Positions 13,643 through 32,553 of a stretch of DNA of 64,000 bases are shown here, one piece after another. The first letter of the stretch is position 1; each line of letters begins with the position of its first letter. The notes beneath the pieces are model-generated. The model had not been told where the DNA came from and did no database searches. It worked only from the letters and a program-made list of their open reading frames with translations. Both the position numbers and the translations under genes were made by a program. The DNA is from an uncultured Flavobacteriales bacterium. GTDB lineage: Bacteria > Bacteroidota > Bacteroidia > Flavobacteriales_D > Crocinitomicaceae. The stretch lies in assembly GCA_913054135.1 (NCBI GenBank), contig CAJXJK010000003.1, positions 268,491 through 332,490 on the forward strand. The letters are read 5' to 3'.

Positions 13643-13732
13643 TGTCTTGTTCTATTCCTCTAGGAATTCAAATAAACAACAATTTACAGAGAATTAATTC
13701 AACATTAGGCTAAATAGTTCAAAATAGATTAC

Positions 13733-13740
13733 TATATTTG
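13733..13740 (+). promoter_or_regulatory. Bacteroidota -7 box (TATATTTG) upstream of RNA candidate A
   Basis: TATATTTG matches TAnnTTTG. A clear TTTG -33 element is not visible at the usual distance, so promoter strength is uncertain. The expected start of transcription is near 13746, about 75 nt before the hairpin at 13821. Confidence 0.45.
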
Positions 13741-13745
13741 GCTCA

Positions 13746-13853
13746 GAGTTTTTTCATGGTTTTCAGCAAGTAGAAGATAACGATTTTTGAAAGCTGTTGT
13801 AATTCCAAAGTAAGTAGTGTACAAGGCCCAACTTTTGTTGGGCCTTGTTGTTT
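13746..13853 (+). ncRNA. Candidate small RNA (RNA A), about 105 nt, ending in a strong terminator hairpin
   Basis: A -7 box lies just upstream and a 12-bp perfect hairpin with a T-rich tail closes the element, only 18 nt before the ATG at 13866. The 75 nt between holds no credible reading frame. Bases 13809-13827 are complementary (18 Watson-Crick pairs plus one G-U) to 16562-16580 in the second RNA candidate. Alternatives: a leader/attenuator of the gene at 13866, or simply a terminator for read-through. I recognise no known RNA family (not tmRNA, SRP RNA, 6S or RNase P by motif). Confidence 0.4.
13821..13848 (+). terminator. Intrinsic terminator-like hairpin (12-bp stem, TTTT loop)
   Basis: The arms ACAAGGCCCAAC and GTTGGGCCTTGT pair perfectly around a TTTT loop and are followed by TGTTT. 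It sits 17 nt before the start codon at 13866, so it either ends an upstream small RNA or attenuates that gene. Confidence 0.75.
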
Positions 13854-13865
13854 AAAGACATTTTT

Positions 13866-14216
13866 ATGAAATCAATCGCATTATTAACCTTTGTTCTTTT
13901 TGGGTTTAGCAGCTTCAGCCAGTCATACCTTGAAGAGTTAGAGAATTCGTATGAAAGATCTAAGGGTGCATCTGGAGCTAAAATTATTTATAAGATTCAT
14001 CTTAATTCTGGAACAATTAGAACGTATTATGCTTCTGACTTTGACAATGGGAAGCTTATTAAAATGAACGAGAAAGCTATTCACTTCGAATTAACTAAAA
14101 AAGAAGGTGAAGAAAGAATGTCAGTCATCATTAATCTTGAAATGACAAAGATTACTGAGTTTGAGATTAAATATCCTAAAGGTGAATGTCAGTATCATTT
14201 TGATTTCTACTACTAA
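13866..14216 (+). CDS. Small secreted hypothetical protein
   Basis: The ATG at 13866 gives a 116-residue protein with a good signal peptide ('MKSIALLTFVLFGFSSFSQS'); an in-frame TTG at 13845 lies inside the terminator hairpin and would spoil the signal sequence, so it is rejected. The mature part is about 97 residues, beta-rich and hydrophilic, with one late cysteine ('GECQYHFDFYY'). I do not recognise the family. It is 12 nt upstream of the 14229 gene and may be cotranscribed. Confidence 0.65.
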   Translation: MKSIALLTFVLFGFSSFSQSYLEELENSYERSKGASGAKIIYKIHLNSGTIRTYYASDFDNGKLIKMNEKAIHFELTKKEGEERMSVIINLEMTKITEFEIKYPKGECQYHFDFYY

Positions 14217-14228
14217 ATAAGGGCTTTA

Positions 14229-14573
14229 ATGACAAAGAACTTGCTTCTTGTTTATAATGCAAATTCAGATTTCAAAAGCAAAATGTTTGACTACATGCAT
14301 AAAGCTATAAGTCCTTCCTCCTATGACTGTCAACTTTGCTCTCTGACCCACACTAATCTTGGCCAAAAAAAAGAATGGTCAGAATTTATTGAGTCTATTG
14401 ACGCCAATCTTACAGTTCTTTATAAAGATCAATTTCTCGCACAAAGAAAAGAGCAACACTTTGATTTTCCGTTAATCATTTATCGAGAAAATGTCGTCTT
14501 GAATAAAGATGGTTTTGAAACTATGGACTTAGAAGGTCTTAAGATTTTTATCAACGACTTGATTTCAAAATGA
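14229..14573 (+). CDS. Conserved hypothetical protein with C-x2-C motif (Bacteroidota family, sometimes labelled GTPase without support)
   Basis: The 114-residue soluble protein begins 'LLLVYNANSDFKSKMFDYMHKAISPSSYDCQLCSLTH', which I recognise as the conserved block of a small family widespread in this phylum: 'YNANS', 'HK..SP..Y.C.LC.LT', then 'W..F'. The overall alternating beta/alpha layout and the C-x2-C pair resemble a thioredoxin-like fold, but that is inference. No P-loop is visible, so a GTPase label would be unsupported. Its 3' end overlaps the convergent gene at 14551 by 23 bp. Confidence 0.7.
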   Translation: MTKNLLLVYNANSDFKSKMFDYMHKAISPSSYDCQLCSLTHTNLGQKKEWSEFIESIDANLTVLYKDQFLAQRKEQHFDFPLIIYRENVVLNKDGFETMDLEGLKIFINDLISK

Positions 14574-14772
14574 GTTCACATTTATAACCAAACTCCTTAA
14601 TGAGCGAGATAATTTTCAAGTTTGTAGATTGATCGGTCGAAATCACATACTTGGCGCCTGCTTTTTCTTTGATCAATTTAACTTCAGAAATTGAAAAATA
14701 AGTTTTTAAAAGCGCATTAATATTGTATGCGCGTTTGTTACTTTTGATATCAGTTTGAAAAATTTGTTCCAT
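14551..14772 (-). CDS. Small hypothetical protein, ferredoxin-like (HMA-like without metal cysteines)
   Basis: The 73-residue product shows a beta-alpha-beta-beta-alpha-beta pattern ('RAYNINALLKTYFSISEVKL', 'AKYVISTD', 'LKIISLIKEFGYKCEL') like heavy-metal-associated domains, but the N-terminal CxxC is absent; one Cys is near the C-terminus. Metal binding is therefore doubtful. ATG at 14772. It converges with the 14229 gene over 23 bp, which weakens the case, but its codon use and fold-like pattern look genuine. Confidence 0.5.
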   Translation of the reverse strand: MEQIFQTDIKSNKRAYNINALLKTYFSISEVKLIKEKAGAKYVISTDQSTNLKIISLIKEFGYKCELILKSSR

Positions 14773-14834
14773 CTTGTCTTAGTAAGTCGATTGACAACAA
14801 CTAATATTTTTAATCTCAAAAAAATTTTGAAACC

Positions 14835-15416
14835 ATGTTAGGATTAAAGTTAAAAACCGACCCTCGGTGGGCAAGAATTGCTGAGGATAATCTTGAGGAA
14901 ATATTGTCAGACCACGCCTGGTGTGAGCAAAAAGCTACGACAAATGCTATTTCACTGATTACCCTAAATTCAGAAAAAACTGACATGGTGGATGCCTTGG
15001 TAGAAGTCGCTTTTGAAGAACTCACTCATTTCAAACAAGTAAGAGAAATCATTAAAGAAAGAGGATTGTATTTTGGTAGAGAGCGAAAGGATGACTATGT
15101 CAATCAACTATATAAATTTTGTCAAAAGGGTGGAGCTAGAGATGTCGCAATGGTTGATAGATTGCTTTTTTCAGCAATGATTGAAGCCCGAAGTTGTGAA
15201 CGATTCAGAGTTCTTTCAGAAAACTTGAAAGATGAAAAGCTATCTAACTTTTATCGTGAACTAATGATTTCAGAGGCGAATCACTATACCTTGTTTCTTG
15301 GTTTTGCAAAAAAATATGGAGGTGAAGTTGATGTAGAAAAAAGATGGAATGAGTGGTTAGAGTTTGAGGGTGACCTGATTCAATCATACGGTAATAAGGA
15401 GAGCATTCACGGTTAA
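14835..15416 (+). CDS. miaE: tRNA-(ms2io6A)-hydroxylase MiaE
   Basis: The 193-residue protein matches MiaE over its length: 'LGLKLKTDPRW' start, 'LSDHAWCEQKATTNAISLI', 'LVEVAFEELTHFKQV', 'RGLYFGRERKDDYVNQL', 'FSAMIEARSCERF' and 'EANHYTLFLGFAK'. The Glu and His in the 'EExxH', 'EARSCERF' and 'EANHY' blocks are the carboxylate-bridged di-iron ligands. The enzyme hydroxylates the isopentenyl group of modified A37 in tRNAs reading UNN codons, an O2-dependent step in the cytoplasm. No miaA or miaB is in the window. Confidence 0.93.
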   Translation: MLGLKLKTDPRWARIAEDNLEEILSDHAWCEQKATTNAISLITLNSEKTDMVDALVEVAFEELTHFKQVREIIKERGLYFGRERKDDYVNQLYKFCQKGGARDVAMVDRLLFSAMIEARSCERFRVLSENLKDEKLSNFYRELMISEANHYTLFLGFAKKYGGEVDVEKRWNEWLEFEGDLIQSYGNKESIHG

Positions 15417-15439
15417 AAAGCTGCTCTAATTCGGTGACA

Positions 15440-15471
15440 TTTGTTTGCTCGAACAGATTTTGCTACATTTG
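15440..15471 (+). promoter_or_regulatory. Consensus Bacteroidota promoter for the lipoprotein gene at 15494
   Basis: TTTG at 15440-15443, a 20-nt spacer and TACATTTG at 15464-15471 match TTTG-N19/20-TAnnTTTG. Transcription should start near 15477, giving a leader of only about 17 nt. Confidence 0.75.
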
Positions 15472-15493
15472 ATTTACACCTAAACTTCATTTT

Positions 15494-16138
15494 ATGTCTA
15501 AGTCTTACATCTTTATTGCTTCATTATTATTTATTTATTCATGTGGATCATCTTCAGAGGAAGTTGAAGAATCTGAGACAACTGATGTTTCAGAGGTTGT
15601 GGAAGAGCAGGAAGAAGAAGTTGCAATCACCAATTCATTTTTACTTGAAGCAAAAGCTTGCGGAAATTTCATAATTGGAGAAGAAGTACCTACACTGCCT
15701 GAGGGACTCAAAATGAGACATTTTGTTGAAGCCGAACTCACAGACGAGGGACCAGGAGAAGAATTGACACATAATGTAATCTTTAATCAATTAGAAGATG
15801 TTGTTGAGTTAATCATGGACCATCAAATGAATGAAGCACATCATGAAGACAAAGACATTCTTGAAATGTGGGTTCTTTCAAATTATTATGAAACGGCAGA
15901 TGCAATTTCAGTTGGGTCTACTATTGAAGAGTTCGAATCGGCTTATCCTGATGCCAAATTATGGTACACTTATGTTTCTGACAGATACGTTTTAGAAACT
16001 GAAGCTTTGCCTGATGTTCATTTCTTATTGAATGCTGAAGATTGTCTAAAGCCTCCAAAAGGAAATATGGATATGGAAATGATGAAGCTTGAAGACTTTA
16101 AAGAAGGCTCTGAAATTGTTAAAATTAGAATGTTCTAG
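15494..16138 (+). CDS. Hypothetical acidic lipoprotein
   Basis: The 214-residue product begins with a lipoprotein signal ('IFIASLLFIYSCGSSSEEVE', lipobox Cys at residue 17), then a low-complexity Glu-rich tether and an acidic globular part ('EVPTLPEGLKM', 'DADAISVGSTIEEF' type segments, two further cysteines). I recognise no named domain. Expected location is the periplasmic or outer face of a membrane. It is expressed from its own strong promoter and is followed by a 512-bp non-coding stretch. Confidence 0.7.
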   Translation: MSKSYIFIASLLFIYSCGSSSEEVEESETTDVSEVVEEQEEEVAITNSFLLEAKACGNFIIGEEVPTLPEGLKMRHFVEAELTDEGPGEELTHNVIFNQLEDVVELIMDHQMNEAHHEDKDILEMWVLSNYYETADAISVGSTIEEFESAYPDAKLWYTYVSDRYVLETEALPDVHFLLNAEDCLKPPKGNMDMEMMKLEDFKEGSEIVKIRMF

Positions 16139-16145
16139 GTTAAAA

Positions 16146-16616
16146 AGCGTACACTTTTCTGTTGAATTATTTGGAGGCAGTTCTTTAATGTTGTAAATTG
16201 GAGCTGTGCTTTTAGCGATAACCTTGAGAACAGGTTTTAAAATCCTAGTTCGAAACCGTTGAAAGCCTAATTCGATTTCATTTTGAATGCATTTTAGAAA
16301 TACAACACTTTATTTCTCTTCTTTTTTTTCTAGAAGAAAATTTCTTTTTTTATCGGCATTAAATACTTTGATTATATCAAATCGAATTAGACGTATAATG
16401 AGCGTGGCTGTTCTTCCACTTCGCTAAGCGAACGCTTCAAATCTGTCTCAGACTTTATGAAATCTATCTTAAGAATTACATCCAATAAAAATGGGCGTCA
16501 TGGATTTCTCTGCAAAGTCTCAAAACTGTAAACTCTACACATATATATATTAGCGCGCAAAGCCTTGTACGCTACTTACTGTGAAAAAAGGCGCTTAATT
16601 CTAAGCGCCTTTTTTT
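16146..16616 (+). ncRNA. Candidate structured non-coding RNA (RNA B), about 430 nt plus terminator
   Basis: The ends pair: AGCGTACA (16146-16153) with TGTACGCT (16566-16573). Inside are GGTTT/AAACC (16233-16257), a 12-bp perfect long-range helix (16267-16278 with 16379-16390), and neighbouring hairpins GTGG/CCAC (16404-16419) and TTCGC/GCGAA (16420-16432) enclosed by AGC/GCT (16401-16403, 16434-16436). Size and closing stem recall RNase P or similar RNAs, but the RNase P core (GAGGAAAGUCC) and tmRNA ends are absent. Strand is chosen from the terminator position. No confident promoter is visible, so it could be a processed 3' UTR of the lipoprotein transcript. Confidence 0.4.
16584..16616. terminator. 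Bidirectional intrinsic terminator, 14-bp perfect stem
   Basis: AAAAAAGGCGCTTA and TAAGCGCCTTTTTT pair perfectly around an ATTC loop with a T-run on either strand. No minus-strand gene ends here, so it most likely ends the plus-strand transcript crossing 16139-16583. Confidence 0.85.
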
Positions 16617-16650
16617 GTAACTTTTGAGTAGATCAGATTGTTCTACTAAT

Positions 16651-32087: not shown

Positions 32088-32553
32088 AATAGCCACATTG
32101 CTTTTGTTTTCATTGTTTGCGTTTGCTTCATGTGATAGCAATCGCATCTATGATGAGAATTTTGAAGTTGGTGATGATGGTTGGGATAATGAAGACATCA
32201 AAACTTTTGAAATTGATATCTCAGATACAATTAGTGCTTTAGATCTTTACATCAATTTTAGAACGACAAGTGATTATCCTTACTCTAATATTTACTTGTT
32301 TTTGCACAGTGAATATCCTGACGGTTATACTGATAAAGATACGATTGAATATATCTTGGCGGCACCAGACGGTGAATGGTATGGTGAAAGTACAGGAACA
32401 GTGGTTGAGAACAAAATGCTCATCTCAAGGGGAGGAAGGTTTGCAACTGCCGGTAAGTATATTTTCAAGGTTGAACATGCAATGAGAGAAGATGTTTTAC
32501 CCGAAGTTCTTGATGTCGGCTTCACAGTTCAGTTGATGGAAATTGAAGAATAA
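32068..32553 (+). CDS. gldH: Gliding motility lipoprotein GldH
   Basis: ATG 32068 gives 161 residues: lipoprotein signal ('TLLLFSLFAFASC', Cys about residue 22), 'DSNRIYDENFEV', 'LYINFRTTSDYPYSNIYLFL', 'DTIEYILAAPDGEWYGESTGTV' and 'YIFKVEHAMREDVLPEVLDVGF', which are GldH landmarks. A longer in-frame stretch runs back to 31726 but there it merely shadows the Lys/Asn-rich ricT tail. GldH is an envelope lipoprotein needed for gliding in Flavobacterium. The 20-bp overlap with ricT suggests coupled translation. Confidence 0.88.
   Translation: MIKRKTKIATLLLFSLFAFASCDSNRIYDENFEVGDDGWDNEDIKTFEIDISDTISALDLYINFRTTSDYPYSNIYLFLHSEYPDGYTDKDTIEYILAAPDGEWYGESTGTVVENKMLISRGGRFATAGKYIFKVEHAMREDVLPEVLDVGFTVQLMEIEE

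Follow-up and report, generated by a model that had tools for sequence, protein, structure and literature searches.

Does a stretch of DNA from an uncultured Flavobacteriales bacterium encode two RNAs that pair with each other? The window, i.e., the whole stretch of 64,000 nucleotides that was analysed, spans positions 268491-332490 of contig 3 of a 4.05-Mb genome, and two of its non-coding gaps contain segments complementary over 19 nt. The first segment belongs to a predicted small RNA, here termed RNA A, and the second lies near the 3' end of a longer predicted structured RNA, termed RNA B. The explanation that is favored here, tentatively, is that RNA A is a stand-alone small RNA (sRNA) likely pairing with the 3' end of RNA B, and that RNA B, which is headed by a leader element, is the likely sponge or antisense partner of RNA A. 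On the most economical reading, RNA B would be an orphaned family-wide leader to which a tail complementary to the genus-specific RNA A is attached.

The complementarity had been noticed in an earlier inspection of the letters (the sequence-only reading), and its coordinates and letters proved exact: positions 13809-13827 (AGTAAGTAGTGTACAAGGC) pair with positions 16562-16580 (GCCTTGTACGCTACTTACT) through 18 Watson-Crick pairs and one G-U pair over 19 nt. The placement of both sites in gaps beside hairpins was likewise borne out, as the site in RNA A enters the terminator stem and the site in RNA B overlaps the 3' strand of a hairpin standing before the terminator. For the window taken in full, the accompanying caution that such a match may arise by chance in 64 kb was justified, since 3 of 25 Markov shuffles contained one or more 19-nt matches with no more than one G-U pair. 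When only intergenic DNA was compared (28 stretches of at least 40 nt, 4145 bases, with open reading frames (ORFs) of at least 90 aa counted as coding), the observed pair was the only one, and it was reached in 5 of 2000 simulations.

The comparison of RNA A with RNA B rests on four genomes of one genus, namely the window's own genome (G000) and the congeners G001, G002, and G003. The same locus is present in all three congeners. Both sites are syntenic in all four genomes, 2.4-2.75 kb apart and in identical relative orientation, and the genes between them are largely syntenic. The features of RNA A are as follows.

13733..13740, forward strand: -7 promoter box of RNA A, TATATTTG, read from sequence; identical in all four genomes and fitting the sigma-A consensus.
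13745..13853, forward strand: RNA A, a small RNA of ~110 nt predicted to stand alone; its 5' end was estimated from the position of the -7 box.
13745..13759, forward strand: arm a1 of RNA A, AGAGTTTTTTCATGG; the same in all four genomes, with complementary segments in the candidate partners C of G003 and D of G002.
13803..13827, forward strand: arm a2 of RNA A, holding the 19-nt site 13809-13827; invariant except for one base in G001.
13822..13847, forward strand: terminator hairpin of RNA A, read from sequence; consensus helix in all four genomes.

The flavobacterial sigma-A -7 consensus is given as TAnnTTTG in PMC9723704. The RNA A block aligned with the three congeners at 82-87% identity, and the flanks on both sides did not align. 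The fold of 13720-13852 yielded a z of -4.5, two pairs of the hairpin between the arms are changed on both sides, and a U-rich terminator follows RNA A in all four genomes. The sequence of arm a2 (TTCCAAAGTAAGTAGTGTACAAGGC) shows a single difference, in G001. In the predicted fold, the first 12 nt of the A site had unpaired probabilities of 0.68-0.97 in the window's RNA and lower ones in the congeners.

The immediate neighbors of RNA A vary: the DUF2461 gene lies upstream only in G000 and G003, and a small protein is encoded downstream in G000, G001, and G002 but not in G003. RNA A is therefore neither the leader nor the 3' untranslated region (UTR) of one fixed gene. With a promoter box and an intrinsic terminator of its own and no fixed adjacent ORF, it is predicted to be an sRNA. 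A covariance search with model R1 of RNA A matched 10 of 240 genomes of the family at E <= 0.001. The four genomes of the genus, from which R1 was built, scored 140-149 bits; the six other matches (29.5-34.1 bits) contained none of the four short arm strings sought, looked like terminators, and were rejected. Convincing matches were thus confined to the same four genomes among the 240.

RNA B, situated between a lipoprotein gene and the following gene, comprises the features listed below.

16171..16201, forward strand: predicted promoter of RNA B, with TTG at 16171-16173, 20 bases, and TAAATTGG at 16194-16201; layout present in all four genomes.
16206..16620, forward strand: RNA B, predicted long structured RNA of ~415 nt, with conserved blocks and helices in all four genomes; 5' end estimated.
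16206..16268, forward strand: 5' domain of RNA B, a copy of the leader element; 78.9 bits with model R3 (the B copy is within the R3 training set).
16208-16217 with 16257-16266, forward strand: helix P1 of the leader element in RNA B; loop strands CCTTGA at 16222-16227 and GAAAC at 16252-16256.
16267..16390, forward strand: helix P2, 16267-16275 with 16382-16390, closing a variable domain; 97% of cells paired.
16552..16573, forward strand: 3' hairpin of RNA B, overlapping the A site; cells with letters all paired in the four genomes.
16562..16580, forward strand: site complementary to RNA A, with the invariant core ACGCTACTTACT at 16569-16580; from the comparison of four genomes and cofolding.
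16584..16616, forward strand: terminator of RNA B, from sequence and fold.

The order of parts was the same in all four genomes: promoter-like layout, 5' domain, P2 with the variable domain, 3' hairpin, ACTTACT, and a further hairpin. The promoter-like layout, TTG-N20-TAAWTT, precedes RNA B in each of them and departs from the TAnnTTTG consensus. In P1, four of eight pairs are changed on both sides among the four genomes, and 98% of cells in the 5' structure were paired, with slid controls at 63% or less. P2 contains one pair changed on both sides, two changed on one side only, and one unpaired cell; the 3' hairpin contains one pair changed on both sides, from U-A to G-U. Each of the four genomes has a hairpin after the B site, with a clear U run only in G000 and G003 and not clearly in G001 and G002. 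In a blastn search with a 261-nt 3' stretch of RNA B, matches were obtained in 4 of 59 genomes, namely the four of the genus.

The A site reads AGTAAGTAGTGTACAAGGC in G000, G002, and G003, and the single change in G001 preserves a G-U pair. The B site, written as its reverse complement, is AGTAAGTAGCGTTCAAGGC in G001-G003 versus AGTAAGTAGCGTACAAGGC in G000. Without mismatch in all four genomes, the pairing amounts to a 12-bp core of 11 Watson-Crick pairs and one G-U pair. The base of G000 that repairs the mismatch at position 13 lies in the 3' hairpin, and its hairpin partner is changed as well (U-A to G-U), so that both folds are preserved. When RNA A was cofolded with the last 170 nt of RNA B, the core duplex was chosen in G001, G002, and G003, with a gain of 11-14 kcal/mol. 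Base pairing between A and B is likely, and it is not proven, since no compensatory change links the two sites. The proposal of a trans-acting RNA pair in the sequence-only reading, which was to be checked in relatives, therefore stands in part: the sites, their synteny, and the 12-bp core are kept in all four genomes, while the full 19 nt pair in G000 only and no compensatory change was found.

If both RNAs are transcribed, ACUUACU of RNA B, which lies outside the 3' hairpin, could serve as a toehold for AGUAAGU of RNA A, and the resulting duplex would open the 3' hairpin. RNA B might thereby draw RNA A away from its targets, or both RNAs might be cleaved. A weak candidate for such a target is a secreted-protein mRNA of the window's own genome that bears a copy of the leader element.

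Further candidate partners of RNA A were found elsewhere in the genus. Candidate RNA C of G000 (contig 7, L003:1480-1700) occupies the intergenic gap after a gene read as OmpA-type and contains GGCCTTGTACACTAC-GTATT-AAAACTCTA, complementary to both arms of RNA A in antiparallel order, over 15 nt and 8 nt. In G003, the syntenic position holds a related gap (L073, G003:C68) that matches it at 82% over 54 nt, and there GCATGAAAAAACTCTA (14 nt) matches arm a1 instead. Candidate RNA D of G002 (L085:1460-1600, G002:C116) is intergenic, has a terminator-like hairpin, and carries AACCATGAAAAAACTCT, 17 nt complementary to arm a1. The partner sites in C of G000, C of G003, and D of G002 were matched by 0, 2, and 0 of 1000 shuffles, respectively. 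As a side observation, the C regions of G000 and G003 have a terminator-like hairpin and are conserved around GGGCAAAAGGGTGGTC and GGCCACTACTTT; the G000 copy gave no Rfam match above the gathering score.

The complement of arm a1, with at most one mismatch, gave 2, 8, 4, and 2 matches in G000-G003, including RNA A itself, versus 1, 3, 1, and 1 for the control. Two of the matches in G001 lie at start codons of signal-peptide genes (L080 exactly; L093 and L095 alike with a mismatch), and others in coding DNA of repeat proteins. As arm a1, AGAGTTTTTTCATGG, matches the start ATGAAAAAACTC of signal-peptide genes, several of these matches are explained. For the complement of arm a2, no further exact copy was found elsewhere in the four genomes, and there was one mismatched place, in G002. 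With its second arm and its other candidate partners, RNA A looks like a regulator with targets, and RNA B like its sponge.

Near-matches of the 19-mer (at most 3 mismatches) numbered 5, 6, 7, and 6 in G000-G003, versus 2, 3, 7, and 2 for the reversed control, and those inspected, other than A, B, and locus C, read as coding. A pattern scan of the genome collection returned four single matches in unrelated taxa, taken as chance, and the Bacteroidota records JABURP010000119.1 and JAUHXX010000001.1, which are taken to correspond to G002:C2 and G003:C395.

A number of results weigh against the favored explanation. In three genomes (G001-G003), an A.A mismatch interrupts the duplex at position 13 of the 19, and at no position in the four genomes is there a compensatory change between A and B; as the arms of RNA A hardly vary either, they may be conserved for other reasons. 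For the window's own genome, the duplex is absent from the minimum-energy cofold. Shuffled versions of B reached the best contiguous run in 0, 28, 44, and 47 of 1000 cases in G000, G001, G002, and G003, respectively, i.e., the 12-bp run alone was matched by 28 shuffles in G001 and 44 in G002, and in G003 a different run, the one matched by 47 shuffles, outscores the 12-bp core. The energy of the whole-RNA duplex, a poor measure here, was unremarkable relative to shuffles (z of -0.8 to -2.0). With A, B, and C set aside, the four genomes show no excess of 19-mer near-matches over the control pattern. Candidate C is not at the syntenic place in G002, the shuffle counts overstate C and D because both were found by searching for complementarity, and a wide set of targets for arm a2 was not seen in the four genomes.

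One alternative is that A and B are both real and that their complementarity arose by chance, selection for other targets maintaining the arm of RNA A and selection for its own fold maintaining the 3' hairpin of RNA B. This is doubtful, although it is the strongest competitor. It agrees with the lack of covariation between the sites, with a contiguous match of only 12 bp in G001-G003, within reach of the shuffles, and with the unsurprising nature of such a match over the whole window. The intergenic-only comparison (5 of 2000) speaks against it, as does the fact that the complementarity covers ACUUACU, which lies outside the hairpin, is invariant in all four genomes, and has no other evident purpose. 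Furthermore, RNA A and the 3' part of RNA B were found in the same four genomes only, among the 240 and 59 searched, respectively.

Model R2 of the 5' domain of RNA B matched 10 of 240 genomes of the family: the four of the genus and six others, two of which scored 56 bits and the remaining four 33-37 bits. Five of the six matches outside the genus directly follow a TAAATTT[GA] box, and all six precede a gene whose product, 348-1228 aa long, has a C-terminus of the type IX secretion kind. In the compact model R3, built from the ten R2 copies, 9 of 10 P1 pairs are changed on both sides, and the covariation score was reached by none of 500 shuffles. Across the order, R3 matched 49 of 399 genomes (13 of 70 genera) at E <= 0.001, all in the window's family, taken as Crocinitomicaceae.

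An alignment at E <= 0.05 comprised 61 copies from 57 sources (the window and fetched loci), with 85% of cells paired versus at most 50% in slid controls. Changes on both sides were observed for 15 of 16 pairs over 59 distinct copies, in an alignment fitted to the model, and for 11 of 16 in a hand-made set of ten. The loop strand CCUUGA is identical in all 61 copies and AAAC in 60, the exception having T at the first A. In 54 of the 61 copies, a -7 box TAnnTTT[GA] starts 9-16 nt upstream of the element, so that the stem would stand at the very start of the transcript.

Downstream proteins were read for 54 copies; left aside were the four copies in RNA B and a further three with no ATG gene nearby (among them the GTG copy of the window's own genome). 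At E <= 0.001, a lamin tail domain (LTD) was found in 38, a Por secretion tail in 37, and CHU_C in 10; the NCBIfam model ExeM matched 38, not compared with the ExeM cut-off. The phosphate-depletion table of Flavobacterium johnsoniae in PMC8115612 lists two LTD-bearing nucleases. A covarying structure at the predicted 5' end of the mRNAs of related genes is what defines a cis-regulatory leader, and the element is accordingly classed as a putative one. Protein binding and a function in RNA stability would suit it as well as metabolite binding.

Several side observations concern single copies. A copy with a long P1 (L172:3587-3646, G152) stands 104 nt before a gene read as encoding a PstS-like phosphate-binding protein, and the copy in L176 (28 bits) is probably a false match. 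Of the 59 copies with sufficient flanking sequence, 22 (e.g., L178, L152, and L153) have the motif GTTAAYAATT no more than 100 nt upstream of the element, and the four B copies lack it; the motif is perhaps a response-regulator operator. A second leader copy of G000 (L150:1104-1161, G000:C12:106603-106660) precedes a gene for a secreted-type protein of more than 1600 aa with an apparent GTG start. This protein gave no Pfam LTD match, and the resemblance between its group and LTD (78% probability in hhalign) was not accepted.

Another rival holds that RNA B is a cis-acting leader and attenuator of the downstream genes for an outer-membrane-like protein and pepT, in which the element would sense, the terminator would set read-through, and pairing of RNA A before the terminator would adjust it. 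This is unlikely. The terminator does end ~35-45 nt before the downstream gene in G000 and G003, the element occupies a 5' leader position elsewhere, and in G035 a terminator-like hairpin stands between the element and the gene, by our own reading of the sequence. Against this, no outer-membrane-like gene was found in G001, which keeps RNA B, the terminator of RNA B is ~300 nt away from the element, and a TAACTTTTG box right after the terminator in G000, again as we read it, suggests a separate promoter.

More elaborate is the idea that RNA B is a two-part decoy, whose head would copy a new class of leader RNA controlling secreted DNA- and phosphate-scavenging genes throughout the Crocinitomicaceae and whose tail would copy the binding site of RNA A, so that it would titrate both the factor of the leader and the sRNA, while RNA A would also hit a leader-bearing secreted-protein mRNA near its start. 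We regard this as rather improbable. Such an mRNA exists as a weak candidate in G000, where CACTGCTTACTT (L150:1221-1232), located 12 nt before the GTG start of the secreted-protein gene with the second leader copy, could pair with RNA A. The match was reached by 0 of 1000 shuffled leaders with arm a2 and by 13 of 1000 with the whole of RNA A. Among 70 start regions in the genus DNA examined, two scored at least 24 against RNA A, the other being the B site itself, and 1 of 54 leaders from genomes lacking RNA A reached a match of this type (background ~2%). As the match was first noticed by eye and the background is 1 of 54, it is a weak lead only. In each of G001-G003, R3 gave a single match, the B copy, and no second leader copy, which counts against the two-part decoy.

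Improbable, too, is the converse of the favored explanation, with RNA A as an antisense RNA that would destroy or silence RNA B. Its anatomy is the same as that of the sponge model, and the sequence does not tell which RNA regulates; the second invariant arm and the candidate partners elsewhere are instead what is expected of a multi-target regulator. The inverted-repeat scar of a mobile element put forward in the sequence-only reading, or a DNA-level recombination or protein-binding site, suits two inverted copies 2.75 kb apart and is nevertheless to be dismissed as highly improbable, given that no likeness extends past the sites, each stands at a fixed place within its own conserved structured stretch in all four genomes, the intervening genes are largely syntenic, and there are few further copies of the 19-nt site in the 4-Mb genome.

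The gene neighborhood of the window locus comprises a histidine kinase, a DUF2461 protein, two small proteins, MiaE, a lipoprotein, an outer-membrane-like protein, and an M20 peptidase. The names lipoprotein, outer-membrane-like protein, and pepT type of M20 peptidase were assigned by our own reading and should be taken as putative. A further long intergenic stretch of 466 nt (window 32088-32553) has a size that could accommodate an RNA gene.

When the window, both gaps, locus C, and six leader loci were scanned against Rfam, one tRNA exceeded its gathering score and all other matches stayed below theirs; the leader element had no family match in Rfam 15. Sub-threshold DUF805 and DUF805b RNA matches were observed side by side near leader-bearing genes (L110:1934-2061 and L113:1064-1191). 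No 6S-Flavo RNA (RF01685) was found in A, B, or the window's own genome, an uninformative outcome as the control genomes were also without a match. A literature search returned no paper joining 'Crocinitomicaceae' with 'small RNA', and nothing linking the lamin tail domain with a riboswitch, or candidate structured RNAs of Bacteroidetes with lamin, although large published sets may contain the element as an unnamed motif.

If the favored explanation is true, an sRNA-sponge pair would be added to the Crocinitomicaceae, and a leader element would have gained a second use, heading a stand-alone regulatory RNA. The element itself is compact (~60 nt), has 11 almost invariant loop bases, and occurs in 13 genera before genes for secreted LTD-type proteins. 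It thus represents a concrete, directly testable candidate for a riboswitch or a protein-binding leader.

Among known systems, the small RNAs of Bacteroides (PMC7366714) belong to the same phylum and concern sRNA regulation. The DUF805 and DUF805b RNAs of Rfam (RF03081, RF02914) are listed as cis-regulatory and matched below threshold in two leader-element loci, but these matches lie elsewhere in the loci than the leader element. Comparable with RNA B are the bacterial sRNA sponges presented in PMC8383071, which include the ChiX decoy in the chb operon, SroC for GcvB, and the 5'-UTR-derived ChiZ and IspZ; as in RNA B, a site is complementary to an arm of the sRNA. The presumed sponge RNA B differs from those sponges in that a promoter and a terminator of its own are predicted and in that it starts with a structured leader element. 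A riboswitch-containing sRNA reportedly sequesters a response regulator, and it resembles RNA B, as read here, in that a leader-type sensor element is placed in a stand-alone RNA that sequesters a regulator. What that sRNA sequesters is a protein, whereas the 3' part of RNA B instead matches an sRNA.

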